Source: a virus
Length of the DNA: 40,822 nucleotides
IMG/VR virus record: IMGVR_UViG_3300009506_000086
Span: 1-40,822 of that record
Reading direction: 5' to 3' (one strand)
The first letter of the stretch is position 1; the number at the start of each line of letters is the position of its first letter. Of this stretch, positions 4,595 through 38,644 are shown piece by piece. Both the position numbers and the translations under genes were made by a program. The notes below the pieces were generated by a model, which was not told where the DNA came from, did not search any database, and worked only from the letters and a program-made list of their open reading frames with translations.

Positions 4595-5356
4595 ATGCAA
4601 GCAGAATTCTCAGACAGAGAAGAACGCCCAGCTTGGGTGCAATTCGAGCAACGACCTATCGAAGACAAAAAAGCATCGTTGGCCGCTGGTCACACGGTCA
4701 TGAAAAACGTTGAATTTGCCTTGGTGACTCCACCTTATTCTAAGGACTGTTTTGAGTTCAAGGTTGAGCAATGGTTCAAGAATCAAGAACAGAATGTTCG
4801 AAATGGTCGTATCCCCGAAAGCTGGTTGAAACACTGGAAAGCTGGCTATGAGGCATGGAAACAAGGCCTAGAAACGCCTCTTCATGGTACCGATATACGA
4901 AACTGGCCAGTCCTTTCGCCCGCCCAGGTAAAGAATCTCATAAATGCCGGTTGCCGCACCATCGAAGATTTGGCCGCCGCGAACGAAGAAGGCCTAAGAC
5001 GTATTGGCATGGGGGGTATTGAGCTCAAAAATAAGGCTAATGCTTATCTTCAAGCCGCTAAGGATCATGGCCCCCTAGTCCTTGAAAATACCGAGTTAAA
5101 GAACCAAGTCGCCCAACTACAGGGCTCTGTCGAGTCCCTTTCGGCTCAAGTTCAAGCACTTTTAAACCAGACTGAAAAGCCTATTGAAATCGATGCCATC
5201 GAACTTGATGATTTGATGAACGAAGATCCAATTCAAGACTTGGGAATTTCCAGCCCAATCTCGCTCGAAGATCAATATGAGCAAAAATTCGGTGAAAAAC
5301 CACATCACCGGATGAAACCCGAAACCATCAAACAAAAGCTTGACGAGGCCATCTAA
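4595..5356 (+). CDS. Hypothetical virion-region protein with helix-hairpin-helix motif and coiled coil
   Basis: The 253-residue protein starts 2 nt after the preceding stop. Around residues 105-155 it has a helix-hairpin-helix-like segment (INAGCRTIEDLAAANEEGLRRIGMG), a type of non-specific DNA-binding unit. This is followed by a coiled coil at about 163-195 (LKNQVAQLQGSVESLSAQVQ) and an acidic tail. Its stop overlaps the next ATG (TAATG). In many phages a protein with such a motif lies in the head-completion region, but I do not recognise a named family here. Confidence 0.6.
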   Translation: MQAEFSDREERPAWVQFEQRPIEDKKASLAAGHTVMKNVEFALVTPPYSKDCFEFKVEQWFKNQEQNVRNGRIPESWLKHWKAGYEAWKQGLETPLHGTDIRNWPVLSPAQVKNLINAGCRTIEDLAAANEEGLRRIGMGGIELKNKANAYLQAAKDHGPLVLENTELKNQVAQLQGSVESLSAQVQALLNQTEKPIEIDAIELDDLMNEDPIQDLGISSPISLEDQYEQKFGEKPHHRMKPETIKQKLDEAI

Positions 5357-16363: not shown

Positions 16364-17347
16364 ATGAAAATGGCACGTAAAACCGAAACCGGAAAATGGC
16401 AAGGAATCGTTCGCAAGAAAGGACATAAAACACGGACCAAAGTCTTCAGCAAAAAAACGCTTGCTGAACGCTGGGAACGCCAAACTCTTGATGAAATTGA
16501 GAAGCAAATTATAACCCCGGTAGCTGATCGAATATTGGTTACTGAATTGGTTGAGAAATACGAAAGAGAATTTATGGCTGAGCGCGGCCGGAGAGATCCT
16601 GAAATGTATCATCTTCAGGTCATAAAAAATAAGCTTGGTGAAATTGTTATTTCGCAACTTACGGCAACGATGATTATCGATTATGTGAAAGACAGATTGA
16701 AGACCGTTACTTCGGGAACCATTCGGAAAGAAATTGGTAAGTTTTCAGTGATCATCGATACTGCAATTGCTTTGGGGGAAATCGATCTACCAGCCAACCC
16801 AATTCATACAGCTAAGTCAATTATGCAAAAGCATAAAATTCTAAAGCCTGGTAATAAGCGCGATAGACGATTCACTGATGAAGAACTAACCGCTCTTTAC
16901 AAGACCAAACATGGTCGATTATTCGAGTTCGCAGTTGAAACAGCCATGAGGCGATCAGAGATCCTTAATATGAAACCTCACCATATAAAGGGAAATACAT
17001 TACATATTCCCCATACCAAAACCGGTGTTGCTCGGACCATTCCACTTTCCAAACGGGCTCTTGAGCTATTAACAGGCTGGGAGAAATGGGGAATACTGCC
17101 TGAAGGCCTTTCTAAGGCGTTTCGACGCGCATGCCAGCAGCTAGATATAGAAGGTGCTAGATTTCACGATCTACGCCACGAGGCGACCAGTAGACTATTT
17201 GAGAAAGGCTGGCATATACCCCAGGTAGCCGCTGTCACAGGCCACGCCGATTGGGAAAGTCTAAAAATCTATACCAATTTGAAAGCTTCGGATTTGGCAG
17301 ACAAATTACACGAAGAAGAAAGACCAAAACTATATGCAGTAAAATGA
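16364..17347 (+). CDS. int: Tyrosine recombinase (phage integrase)
   Basis: The 327-residue protein has an N-terminal DNA-binding part (KWQGIVRKKGHKTRTKVFSK, arm-binding type), a helical core-binding domain at about 55-150 and a C-terminal catalytic domain. All active-site residues are present: Arg196 (AMRRSEIL), Lys219 (HTKTG), His268 and Arg271 (FHDLRHEATS), His294 (VTGHAD) and the nucleophile Tyr303 (KIYTNL). It lacks the extra insert that marks integron integrases. It directly follows the att-like repeats, supporting site-specific integration and a temperate life cycle. A second in-frame ATG lies two codons in. Confidence 0.95.
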   Translation: MKMARKTETGKWQGIVRKKGHKTRTKVFSKKTLAERWERQTLDEIEKQIITPVADRILVTELVEKYEREFMAERGRRDPEMYHLQVIKNKLGEIVISQLTATMIIDYVKDRLKTVTSGTIRKEIGKFSVIIDTAIALGEIDLPANPIHTAKSIMQKHKILKPGNKRDRRFTDEELTALYKTKHGRLFEFAVETAMRRSEILNMKPHHIKGNTLHIPHTKTGVARTIPLSKRALELLTGWEKWGILPEGLSKAFRRACQQLDIEGARFHDLRHEATSRLFEKGWHIPQVAAVTGHADWESLKIYTNLKASDLADKLHEEERPKLYAVK

Positions 17348-23648: not shown

Positions 23649-23830
23649 TGAATAAGCGAGCGGAACAGGCTAAGAAGAATCGCGATAAAATGCCGCAAAT
23701 AGCAGCCTTTATGGATGAACTCAAACAGTTTATCCCTGAGGCTAAGGTTGTTTATGCAAAAGAGGGCGGGATAGAAATTGGCAACCAAGACGAAAAAACG
23801 ACCCGAACGATTTGCCCTAAAAGTTATTAA
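23648..23830 (+). CDS. Hypothetical small basic protein
   Basis: The 60-residue product (MNKRAEQAKKNRDKMPQIAA at the start) overlaps the helicase stop by one base (TAATG) and is charged and helical, ending in a short beta-like stretch (VVYAKEGGIEIG). Its last 53 bases overlap the next gene. No family is recognised. Coupling suggests it is translated with the replication genes. Confidence 0.5.
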   Translation: MNKRAEQAKKNRDKMPQIAAFMDELKQFIPEAKVVYAKEGGIEIGNQDEKTTRTICPKSY

Positions 23831-24254
23831 GGATGGGTTTTGTCCGGCAGATAACTACACAACGGCAAGGTTGAGAGAGAAAGGTTTTAAGGTTGGCGAT
23901 GTAATTTTTTCCGAGCTGAAGAAGCCACGCAATCCTAGGTTTCATGCGCTAGGCCATGCGCTGGGTAGTATTGTCGCCCACAATATCCAGGCGTTTAATG
24001 GGATGGACGCCCATAAGGTTTTAAAGCGTTTGCAAATGGAAGCAAATATTGGTTGCGAGGAAATCGCTTTTAATATGCCAGGGGTTGGGATGCTAATACA
24101 ACGAGTGCCAAAGAGTTTAAGTTTTGAAAGCATGGATGAAGGCGAGTTTCATGAAGTGCTGAGGGGAATGTGCCGCCATATAGCTGAGCGATATTGGCCT
24201 AATATGGATGCGCAACAAATCGAAGAAATGGCAAAATTGATGGTAGGGGAATGA
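23778..24254 (+). CDS. DUF1367-like protein
   Basis: The 158-residue product starts at a TTG with GAGGGCGGG about eight bases upstream and a natural-looking MATKTKKRPERF. The block KKPRNPRFHALGHALGSIVA and the later KSLSFESMDEGEFHEVLRGM match the two conserved parts of the DUF1367 family common in the nin-like region of lambdoid phages. The function is unknown; its genes lie beside those for recombination nucleases such as NinB/NinG and RusA, as here. Confidence 0.6.
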   Translation: MATKTKKRPERFALKVIKDGFCPADNYTTARLREKGFKVGDVIFSELKKPRNPRFHALGHALGSIVAHNIQAFNGMDAHKVLKRLQMEANIGCEEIAFNMPGVGMLIQRVPKSLSFESMDEGEFHEVLRGMCRHIAERYWPNMDAQQIEEMAKLMVGE

Positions 24255-24454
24255 TTTTAATGGAATTAGATGAAGAAACAATCAAAGAAGTAGTTAATGA
24301 GCTATCACTTTTTAGATTGGCCGAAAGAAAATTTCCAGATATGAAAATTGGCCAAGTTCGTGCCTGTGCCTGTATAGGGCCTTTGCCTGAATGCAAATGC
24401 AAGAAACGCGAGCGATTAGTGGCGGAATTTATTAGAGAATTTAAAAACGCCTAA
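24251..24454 (+). CDS. Hypothetical protein ending in an attC site
   Basis: The 67-residue product (MILMELDEETIKEVVNELSL at the start) has a Cys cluster ACACIGPLPECKCKKRERL that may bind metal and a helical end. It starts on ATGA overlapping the upstream gene. Its stop codon lies inside the first arm of an attC-like site, as is common for genes in integron cassettes. This gene may therefore be the remaining part of an older cassette whose left edge has been lost. Confidence 0.55.
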   Translation: MILMELDEETIKEVVNELSLFRLAERKFPDMKIGQVRACACIGPLPECKCKKRERLVAEFIREFKNA

Positions 24455-24532
24455 CGCTCTAATCAGCCGGGCGCCACCGGCTTTAAATAATTGTGCGACG
24501 ACAGCCGCCTCGGCTGAATTTGAATGTTAGGC
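24449..24532. other. attC: attC-like recombination site 1
   Basis: The site has the complete integron attC architecture: GCCTAAC (R'', fits RYYYAAC) at 24449-24455, TCAGCCG (L'') at 24463-24469, CGGCTGA (L') at 24511-24517 and GTTAGGC (R', fits GTTRRRY) at 24526-24532. R''/R' pair over nine bases (ACGCCTAAC/GTTAGGCGT) and L''/L' over seven. The spacers of 7 and 8 bases do not match each other, as in real attC hairpins. The 41-base centre can extend the stem. Confidence 0.75.
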
Positions 24533-24858
24533 GTGAACGAAGCCTGCGTAAACTAAGGAATAAAAAAAATGAGTAAGTGTAAATTATGCGGAGAACCAAT
24601 GCCTGAAGGTGAAGAGATTTTTAAGTATCACGGGTTTAGCGGCCCATGCCCAAAATCTCCATTGCCGCGAGACGACGGAGCGGAAGAAGTGAGGGATATG
24701 TTTAAGCGCGTAACCGGAGTTGATGTGAAGGTGCGAGTCGTGAACGGTGAATTCTTTGTTACTGATCCTGATGGACAGGAATTTAAAACCGGTCTCGTGC
24801 GGATACATTAACGCCTAACAAAAAGATAAGCCGCCCGCAGGATCGGCTTAATCAAAAG
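24527..24858 (+). mobile_element. Integron-style gene cassette (about 332 bp)
   Basis: The segment between the G^TT points of two successive attC-like sites holds one gene in the expected orientation. Its first bases (TTAGGCGT) pair with the R'' arm near its own right end (ACGCCTAAC). This self-complementarity is the signature of a cassette, because excision would rejoin the two as one intact attC. No integron integrase gene is present in the genome, so the cassette was probably captured in a host that has one. Confidence 0.7.
24569..24811 (+). CDS. Cassette-encoded zinc-ribbon-like protein
   Basis: The 80-residue product starts MSKCKLCGEPMPEGEEIFKY. Cys-x-x-Cys near residues 4-7 and a later HGFSGPCP could form one zinc site. 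The second half (VRDMFKRVTGVDVKVRVVNG and then FFVTDPDGQEF) looks like a small alpha/beta unit. It is the only gene between two attC-like sites and has AAGGA upstream of ATG. The stop lies one base before the R'' arm. I recognise no family. Confidence 0.65.
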   Translation: MSKCKLCGEPMPEGEEIFKYHGFSGPCPKSPLPRDDGAEEVRDMFKRVTGVDVKVRVVNGEFFVTDPDGQEFKTGLVRIH

Positions 24859-24864
24859 TTATAA
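24813..24864. other. attC: attC-like recombination site 2
   Basis: GCCTAAC (R'') at 24813-24819, seven bases, TAAGCCG (L'') at 24827-24833, a ten-base centre, CGGCTTA (L') at 24844-24850, seven bases and GTTATAA (R') at 24858-24864. The L arms and layout closely resemble the short attC sites of aadA-type cassettes. R' departs from GTTRRRY at two positions, as expected where the flank is not another cassette. Confidence 0.7.
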
Positions 24865-24869
24865 ATAAT

Positions 24870-25211
24870 ATGCAGCGAAAACCAACTAAAAACACACGCG
24901 GTCCCAATGCCAAAGAAAAACAATTTATGGCTTGGGTCAAATGGCGTCCCTGTATTTGTTGCTCTGCGCCAGCTCCTTCTATCGTGCATCATGCCGAAGG
25001 GGCGACATTTAAACACCAAAAAATATTAGTCGGTCATTGGTTTATATTGCCACTTTGCCAAGATTGCGATGATGTAATAACCCAAGGAAGTAGGAGAGCT
25101 TTTAGGGATCGATTTGGGCCTCAATCAAAGCTGTGGCTTAAATTGATTTATAAAACTCCTATTTGGCCACCGGATAATGTAATAGAAGCCATTAAGGATT
25201 GGGGTAGATGA
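24870..25211 (+). CDS. HNH/Ref-like nuclease
   Basis: The 113-residue protein has a Cys-rich metal site, RPCICCSAPAPSIVHHAEG, followed by GHWFILPLCQDCDDVITQGS. This is the double-Cys, His-His and Leu-Cys layout of small HNH-fold nucleases related to phage Ref and similar nin-region proteins. The end is helical (LWLKLIYKTPIWPPDNVIEA). It starts six bases after attC site 2 and its stop overlaps the RusA start. It probably acts in recombination or DNA processing. Full nuclease activity is not certain from sequence. Confidence 0.65.
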   Translation: MQRKPTKNTRGPNAKEKQFMAWVKWRPCICCSAPAPSIVHHAEGATFKHQKILVGHWFILPLCQDCDDVITQGSRRAFRDRFGPQSKLWLKLIYKTPIWPPDNVIEAIKDWGR

Positions 25212-36368: not shown

Positions 36369-36442
36369 TTAGGTATAGCTCAACAGGTTAGAGCAACTGA
36401 TTTTGATTCAGTGGGTTATGGGTTCGAGTCCCATTTCCATTT
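36369..36442 (+). tRNA. tRNA-Gln(TTG)-like gene with unpaired acceptor stem
   Basis: D arm GCTC-AACAGGTTA-GAGC, anticodon arm ACTGA-TTTTGAT-TCAGT (anticodon TTG), five-base variable loop and T arm ATGGG-TTCGAGT-CCCAT are all perf­ect in size and pairing. The expected acceptor strands (36369-36375 and 36435-36441) pair at only three of seven positions and CCA is not encoded. Just outside, CTGTTT and AAACAG are complementary. It may be a decaying tRNA gene or a tRNA-like RNA. Confidence 0.55.
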
Positions 36443-37020: not shown

Positions 37021-37146
37021 GGTGGGAATGGCAGGACTCGAACCTGCACGCAGTCTTTGTCAAAGGCCCCAAAATTCCAGTTTATGAACTGGTCTGCAAG
37101 AATGACGGGCATACCATCTCGCGTCTACCTATTCCGCCACATTCCC
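37021..37146 (-). tRNA. Oversized class II (Leu-like) tRNA gene
   Basis: On the minus strand GGGAATG (37146-37140), TG, D arm GCG-GAATAGGTAGA-CGC, T arm GCAGG-TTCGAGT-CCTGC and CATTCCC with A73 form a perfect acceptor, D and T arm set. The D arm copies bacterial tRNA-Leu. The region between D and T arms is about 72 bases, against about 40 in normal tRNA-Leu, and holds hairpins CCAGTT-CATA-AACTGG and CTTT-GAC-AAAG. I cannot assign a normal anticodon arm. An insertion, intron or unusual variable arm is likely. Only CC of CCA is encoded. Confidence 0.6.
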
Positions 37147-37240: not shown

Positions 37241-38644
37241 ATGAAGTCAATAAACTTGCCCTATAACTGGCGGCCGCGGGGCTATCAGTTAAACCTATGG
37301 AATTACTTACGGGATGGGGGCAAGCGGGCGGCAGCGTGTTGGCATCGCCGGGCGGGTAAAGATGCGGTACTCCTCCATCACAACGCTTGTGCAGTTTTTG
37401 AGAGAGTCGGCAACTACTGGTATCTACTTCCTGAGTACAACCAGTGTAGAAAAGCCATCTGGGACGCGGTAAACCCTCATACGGGCAAAAAACGCTTAGA
37501 TGAGGTCTTTCCCCCTGAGGTCCGGTCCAAGACTCTCTCCCAGGAAATGAAGATCGAATTCCCTAATGGATCGACTTGGCAGCTCATGGGGTCCGATAAC
37601 TTCGATGCGCTTGTAGGTTCTACGCCATTCGGTCTCACTTTTTCTGAATACGCACTATCTAACCCCTCCTCATGGGGGTTTTTAAGTCCTATTCTCTTAG
37701 AAAATGGAGGCTGGGCGGTCTTTAACTCGACTCCTCGGGGTAAAAACCACTTCTACAAGATGATCCAGCACGCCAAACGTGATGATGAGTGGTTTGGCGA
37801 AGTTTTAACAGCAGATCAGACCGGGGTTTTCAGTAACGAAGACCTTCTAAGAGAGCTAACGAGACTACAGGATGAACATGGCGATGCGTACGGTAAGGCG
37901 ATATGGCTCCAAGAGTACTATTCCTCATTTGAAGCAGCTTTGCCCGGTTCGGTATGGGGTGAGAGCCTCGCCAAAGTTTCACAAGACGGCAGAATTACAG
38001 ATGTGCCGCATCAAGAGGGATTCCCCGTTTTTACAGCGTGGGATATTGGCCGGACAGATGAAACGGCCATTTGGTTTTATCAAGTTATCTCGAACGAAAT
38101 TCGGGTCATTGACTACCATGCGGATAATTTCAAAGAAATTCCAGATTACGCACGCGTTTTAAGAGAAAAACAAGCTCAATGGGGCTACGAATATGGCCTT
38201 CACTGGCTCCCCCATGATGCCGTACCCAAAAAAATGGGGATGGGGGGCAAGTCGATCCTCCAACAATTCATGGATGAGAACGTAGGAAAATTCGCCATCA
38301 CGCCGAACCTGAAAAAAGAAGATGGCCATCAAGCGGCCCGCGCCACTTTCCATAAATGTTGGTTTGATGAAGACAAATGTTTTGACGGGATCGAGCATCT
38401 TAAGGGCTATCGTCGTCAGTACGACGAAGTGAAAAAGGTCTTCTCCAAAGACACTGTTCATGATGAACATTCCCATGCGGCTGATGCTTTCCGCTATCTG
38501 TCGCTGACCTGGAAACAAAGTAAAAACCAGGTGCCTGATATCACCCAGGCCCAGAAATTCCATGTTGGAAATATCACCCAAGTTAACTTCGGCCAGATTA
38601 AAAAGGCCCATTTTCAGAAAATGAGGGAAAAACGTGAATTCTGA
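37241..38644 (+). CDS. terL: Large terminase subunit
   Basis: The 467-residue packaging motor has a Walker A of the HRRAGKD form (residues 35-41), Walker B TFSEYA with the catalytic Glu near 136 and motif III NSTPRGKNH (162-170). The C-terminal RNase-H-like nuclease has acidic residues at AWDIG (Asp268), HDAVP (Asp326) and HAADAFRY (Asp416). It pumps DNA through the portal and cuts it. The gene follows about 50 bases after the tRNA region without a strong ribosome site and overlaps the next small gene. Confidence 0.95.
   Translation: MKSINLPYNWRPRGYQLNLWNYLRDGGKRAAACWHRRAGKDAVLLHHNACAVFERVGNYWYLLPEYNQCRKAIWDAVNPHTGKKRLDEVFPPEVRSKTLSQEMKIEFPNGSTWQLMGSDNFDALVGSTPFGLTFSEYALSNPSSWGFLSPILLENGGWAVFNSTPRGKNHFYKMIQHAKRDDEWFGEVLTADQTGVFSNEDLLRELTRLQDEHGDAYGKAIWLQEYYSSFEAALPGSVWGESLAKVSQDGRITDVPHQEGFPVFTAWDIGRTDETAIWFYQVISNEIRVIDYHADNFKEIPDYARVLREKQAQWGYEYGLHWLPHDAVPKKMGMGGKSILQQFMDENVGKFAITPNLKKEDGHQAARATFHKCWFDEDKCFDGIEHLKGYRRQYDEVKKVFSKDTVHDEHSHAADAFRYLSLTWKQSKNQVPDITQAQKFHVGNITQVNFGQIKKAHFQKMREKREF

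Follow-up and report, generated by a model that had tools for sequence, protein, structure and literature searches.

The window, a 40,822-nt stretch of viral DNA recorded in IMG/VR, encodes a phage gene set that includes a major head protein, a terminase, NinB, RusA and a tyrosine integrase, as in a temperate phage. The integrase gene (16364–17347, plus strand; PHROG_1, PF00589) lies well away from the region described here, which falls within a cluster of recombination genes. The order in this region is NinB, ORF67, attC1, ORF80, attC2 and an HNH gene, with RusA completing the cluster. The left phage flank is a NinB/Orf-like recombination mediator (23778–24254, plus; PHROG_319, E = 2e-28), while the right flank is a DUF968-like HNH endonuclease (24870–25211, plus; PHROG_96/PF06147). 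ORF80 is an 80-codon gene (24569–24811, plus) that is co-directional with the cluster, and the AAGGA upstream of it could serve as a ribosome-binding site. ORF67, a 67-codon frame (24251–24454, plus), overlaps the end of NinB and stops inside attC1. It is either a phage gene or what is left of another cassette whose attC has disappeared; no recognisable left end of a cassette was seen, and a search of viral contigs found no relatives of it. Among annotated phages, the window has no nucleotide relative. Elsewhere in the window, an Rfam tRNA match extends over 124 nt of the minus strand (37023–37146), a span that implies a long insertion in the tRNA or a pseudo-tRNA, and a second tRNA is located at 36372–36438.

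The two attC-like imperfect palindromes that the initial annotation placed around the 80-codon frame are both present, one strong and one weaker. The first, attC1 (24449–24532, minus strand), has the R boxes GCCTAAC (24449–24455) and GTTAGGC (24526–24532), which are complementary at all seven positions, an L stem of 9 bp that includes extrahelical bases and a 1-nt bulge, and a variable terminal structure. Folded as single-stranded DNA, its minus strand has a z-score of −4.6. In a strict search for R boxes together with an L stem, attC1 was the only match in the window, with none in ∼300 shuffled window-equivalents. The second site, attC2 (24813–24864, minus), is a decayed attC-like site comprising the R box GCCTAAC (24813–24819), a hairpin (GATAAGCCG/CGGCTTAATC) and a degenerate far R box (GTTATAA, 24858–24864; TTATAAC on the minus strand), and its fold z-score reaches only −1.6.

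Because an Rfam scan returned no attC-type match, we trained our own attC covariance model on 20 reference attCs, a set that excluded the window and the contigs L001, L015 and L016 (described below). With this model, attC1 ranked first in the window, with a modest score of 15.6 bits on the minus strand (E = 0.048) compared with 11.1 bits on the plus strand, while attC2 gave no match. The runner-up in the window, at 15.4 bits, was spurious. The match at 37772–37798 was rejected, as it has R-box-like ends without a stem. From its anatomy, attC1 is convincing as an attC-type site.

The polarity of the sites could be read from their extrahelical bases. In almost all reference attCs of known polarity, from class 1 and chromosomal integrons, the gene-sense strand carries the extrahelical base in its 5′ arm. 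Both window sites carry it in the 3′ arm of the plus strand, and the extrahelical bases and bulge side of attC1 fit the reference attCs on the minus strand only. The side of the bulge and the strand preferred by the covariance model therefore define attCs that read on the minus strand and a gene, ORF80, that is reversed on the plus strand, correcting the normal orientation that had been assigned to it. Normal orientation is usual for cassettes rather than defining, since ∼4% of the chromosomal cassettes analysed here are reversed. The covariance model placed every match in L001, L015, L016 and L029 on the minus strand, with the ORF80 relative there on the plus strand, and thus ORF80 opposes attC polarity in every context examined.

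Minus polarity also changes the limits of the cassette. Applying the G↓TTRRRY boundary logic, the predicted excised unit is 364 bp on the minus strand (24455–24818), running from G↓TTAGGCG through the reversed ORF80 to attC1, and replaces the interval 24527–24858 proposed initially. The complementarity of the cassette ends, as expected of a former closed circle, is nevertheless real: the predicted excised circle restores a perfect attC that is identical to attC1.

ORF80 is rare, with full relatives found in a phage contig (L001, 80% identical), a metagenome-assembled genome (MAG) contig (L015, 78%) and a Methylotenera MAG contig (L016, 74%), all in attC-flanked cassettes; none was found when annotated phages and plasmids were searched. 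L015 is a chromosomal integron, with six attCs (32–58 bits) and a tyrosine recombinase to which the integron-integrase model gives 491 bits (cut-off 265), so that looking for the 80-residue protein in integron arrays, as had been suggested, does recover it beside an IntI. From the Mu-like order of the neighbouring genes, we read L016 as a Mu-like prophage. Its attC at 5245–5301 (51.8 bits) is of the host's own chromosomal type, closely resembling at least 44 attCs of the chromosomal integron in the same genome. Clear attCs of 26–52 bits lie on both sides of the ORF80 homologues in L015 and L016, and attC-like sites also surround the homologue in L001. Judged by homology, ORF80 is a genuine integron cassette gene, and together with the anatomy of attC1 its homologues in attC arrays bear out the proposal of an integron-type cassette inside a phage.

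The same homologues weigh against reading the palindromes as terminators, or as hairpins that arose by chance between phage genes, instead of recombination sites. Such a reading would draw on the weakness of attC2 and on the position of both sites directly after stop codons, but the R boxes fit the attC consensus with the correct spacing and extrahelical bases, the shuffled sequences held no equal of attC1, the homologues in L015 and L016 have clear attCs on either side, and one of them belongs to an IntI-adjacent array. We consider it very improbable.

The ORF80 protein has no Pfam family above cut-off and no PHROG or NCBIfam match. Across four homologues, residues C4, C7, H21 and C27 are invariant, which suggests a small zinc-binding accessory protein; a role in counter-defence or regulation is a guess. 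The predicted structure is poor (pLDDT 66), and the matches of this model in the PDB were dismissed as meaningless, leaving no fold match. The N-terminal segment alone is found in L002 and L029 and may be a module shuffled among proteins. In L029 (G294:C13:599-703), the segment is part of a longer open frame ∼3.3 kb from an IntI.

As stated in the initial annotation, the window encodes no IntI: a search across it with the TIGR02249 model found none, and its sole detected tyrosine recombinase, the phage integrase, scores 23.5 bits against the cut-off of 265. CALINs are recognised by at least two attCs close together and no intI, and here there is one strong and one decayed site without IntI. 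We also looked for an empty site through relatives of NinB, the HNH protein and the helicase, none of which was close enough in the collections searched. In a single case, L008, an HNH gene directly follows NinB (34% identical) without a cassette.

We then compared gene direction with attC polarity in viral and chromosomal arrays, the material being MAG and virome contigs. Two DNA pattern scans of viral contigs, followed by the attC model, yielded ∼70 arrays with at least three attCs; the attC patterns used were of betaproteobacterial type, and the sample is biased accordingly. As a control, 19 IntI-adjacent chromosomal arrays were taken through the same pipeline, with gene orientation called from ORF length, start codon and SD signals. 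The contrast was pronounced. In the viral arrays, 166 of 195 cassette genes (85%) oppose attC polarity and 29 follow it, whereas 85 of 89 genes in the chromosomal integrons follow it and four (∼4%) are reversed. Counted per array, 56 viral arrays are mostly reversed and six mostly normal, compared with 19 of 19 chromosomal arrays that are mostly normal. Dereplication of the viral set into 71 clusters left 28 genes in the same and 166 in the reverse direction. The model, being of betaproteobacterial type, found no match in the known attC phages TJE1, P12002L and part of H101, whose polarity is thus not comparable.

Such a reversal could in principle be spurious, produced by ORF calling or by the attC model's choice of strand, as antisense ORFs are long in GC-rich DNA and a few sites score on both strands. 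This is very improbable, and an SD-led ATG, present in 151 of 258 viral-array ORFs opposing attC (59%) and in 6 of 222 following it (3%), argues directly against it. The same pipeline gave the opposite result in chromosomes (85 against 4), reading array L145 by eye agreed with the reversed orientation, and at the IntI loci the result can be expressed with intI as the reference, leaving aside the fine structure of attC.

Most of the large genes tested at the flanks of the viral arrays encode phage portal, terminase, tail, primase, polymerase or recombination proteins. These flanks run mostly opposite to attC polarity in 24 arrays and mostly with it in 16, the rest being mixed, and on this ground flanking-gene direction was rejected as a sufficient cause of the reversal. 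The cassette genes common to several arrays form 15 homologue groups in which every member is reversed, and the two chromosomal members of these groups are among the rare reversed chromosomal cassettes.

Several features of individual cassettes were also observed. An identical 94-residue cassette protein is encoded in two different viral contigs (L075:734 and L103:2236), which suggests recent exchange. DNA methyltransferases recur as reversed phage cassettes (L090:1518-2274, L102:816, L112:6248 and L191:2553), and match the methyltransferase cassettes that figure in the phage integron survey of Qi et al. (PMC9892861). In L145:547-1494 and L016:4892-5340, the same SD-bearing leader is repeated right after attC, as if the two travelled together; an ‘attC plus leader’ module was rejected as a general feature, being seen in 4 of 70 arrays.

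A full IntI is encoded in four of 50 array-bearing viral records and absent from 46. One of the IntI-bearing records, G506, has genes for a tape-measure protein, tail, portal, endolysin and phage integrase. A scan of viral contigs with the phage IntIs recovered 224 relatives, and 80 of them were retained. Where attCs were detected at the viral IntI loci, they are nearly always upstream of intI and have the usual polarity, and the cassette genes beside viral intI are co-directional with it in 49 of 53 cases (arrays, 20 versus 0). Ten loci were tested, all selected because intI has a co-directional neighbour; in nine of these, the first such gene past intI encodes a phage integrase.

A tree that also included 32 chromosomal IntIs grouped 56 viral IntIs in a clade free of chromosomal sequences (support 98/97). 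An enlarged tree, built by a quick method with added bacterial IntIs picked for their similarity to the phage ones and with a few fast-evolving viral sequences omitted, gave a clade of 53 of the 56 viral IntIs and one of 82 bacterial IntIs (G864), with an SH-aLRT of 98. An IntI-like recombinase is also encoded by Virus Rctr41k, an annotated phage from a DAMO enrichment (KX853513.1, 4680-5678), where it is co-directional with a run of small genes that precede it; no site was detected there with the attC model.

Taken together, we regard it as highly probable that 24455–24818 is a cassette of phage-specific type, comprising attC1 and a gene that runs against its polarity, with the decayed attC2 on the right, and that it belongs to a pool of reversed phage cassettes. 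It lies in a phage, its gene opposes attC polarity, and its homologues occur in other reversed cassettes; an IntI of the phage clade in cis, a trait of the minority in this pool, is absent from the window. A little less firmly, it is probable that phages carry an integron lineage of their own, with a distinct IntI clade often encoded beside the phage integrase and inverted cassette genes read with the intI–int operon, and that the resulting separate pool has members in IntI-less phages such as the one analysed here.

The phage pool is therefore a more likely source of the ORF80 cassette than a host integron, given that host cassettes are predominantly normal (85/89) and phage cassettes predominantly reversed (166/195), that shared genes are all reversed and that the phage IntI clade is distinct. 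The initial annotation had proposed that the cassette was picked up from an integron-bearing host. The presence of the same gene in the chromosomal integron L015 favours this, but with the orientation contrast between hosts and phages a simple host pick-up is not the best account, and the reversed ORF80 copy in that chromosome may itself be of phage origin. From the homologues in different contexts, the cassette may have been transferred between hosts.

In a more conventional scenario, the locus would be an ordinary CALIN, formed when a host IntI placed a normal host cassette at a secondary site in the phage, and the reversal would be part of the few-per-cent background of any integron. The ∼4% of reversed genes in chromosomal arrays, the presence of ORF80 in one chromosomal integron and the phage CALINs already known (PMC9892861) are all compatible with this. 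We nonetheless find it unlikely, as ORF80 is reversed in all contexts examined, 85% of viral-array genes are reversed, and the genes shared between arrays are of the reversed type only.

A phage cassette pool of this kind could arise through selection on gene direction. Recombination between attI and attC would fix attC polarity relative to intI, as in bacteria, and if the phage operon extends across the array to intI and int, expression would be limited to cassettes in which the gene is reversed. Such cassettes would then be selected, creating a pool separate from the bacterial one. The direction of the flanking genes relative to the cassette genes varies among the viral arrays, so operon read-through is a possible, not an established, cause of reversal. 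In the window, ORF80 is co-directional with the recombination cluster and so could be expressed by read-through of that operon, with no need for an integron Pc promoter. IntI-less phages, including that of the window, may gain and lose cassettes through an IntI supplied by the host or by a co-resident prophage.

Phage integrons have been described before. Qi et al. found 17 CALINs and three complete integrons in 10,705 genomes, with attC sites and cassettes lacking IntI in temperate and virulent phages, and IntI1 recombined five of the six phage attCs that they tested (PMC9892861). Their CALINs resemble the window in having an attC and a cassette without IntI in a phage. The passages of that article describing these elements present the Vibrio and Shewanella phage integrons as close to host ones and that of P1 as a mosaic of class 1 integrons, and report no genes reversed relative to attC, phage IntI clade or shared phage cassette pool (PMC9892861). 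In the open-access journal literature searched, we found neither reversed phage cassettes nor a phage IntI clade described. Apparently, then, reversed phage cassettes form a large and undescribed pool, with many of the carrier phages encoding their own IntI lineage.

Integrons are usually seen as bacterial devices that phages now and then carry off. The direction of genes relative to attC, together with an IntI clade almost exclusive to phages, suggests rather that phages operate integrons of their own with a common cassette pool. If so, phage accessory genes would be swapped one at a time by recombination, and reversed orientation would offer a simple sequence signature separating phage-derived from bacterial cassettes within host arrays. 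It also raises the question of which attC strand is exposed in phages.

Co-direction of intI and cassette genes is also a feature of bacterial integrons termed ‘inverted’, for example in Treponema denticola, where intI is the element that has been turned round with respect to attI and the array. In the phage arrays, by contrast, attC has its standard polarity with respect to intI, and it is the cassette genes that are inverted. The sedentary chromosomal integrons of Proteobacteria (G001 and the Methylotenera arrays), which have a TIGR02249 IntI, share the attC architecture of the phage arrays, but their genes point in the direction of attC polarity and away from intI, the reverse of the phage cassettes. 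One Methylotenera chromosomal integron, L030 (G002:C5:3001-23000), contains ∼19 cassettes of 247–250 bp with little or no ORF and near-identical attCs.
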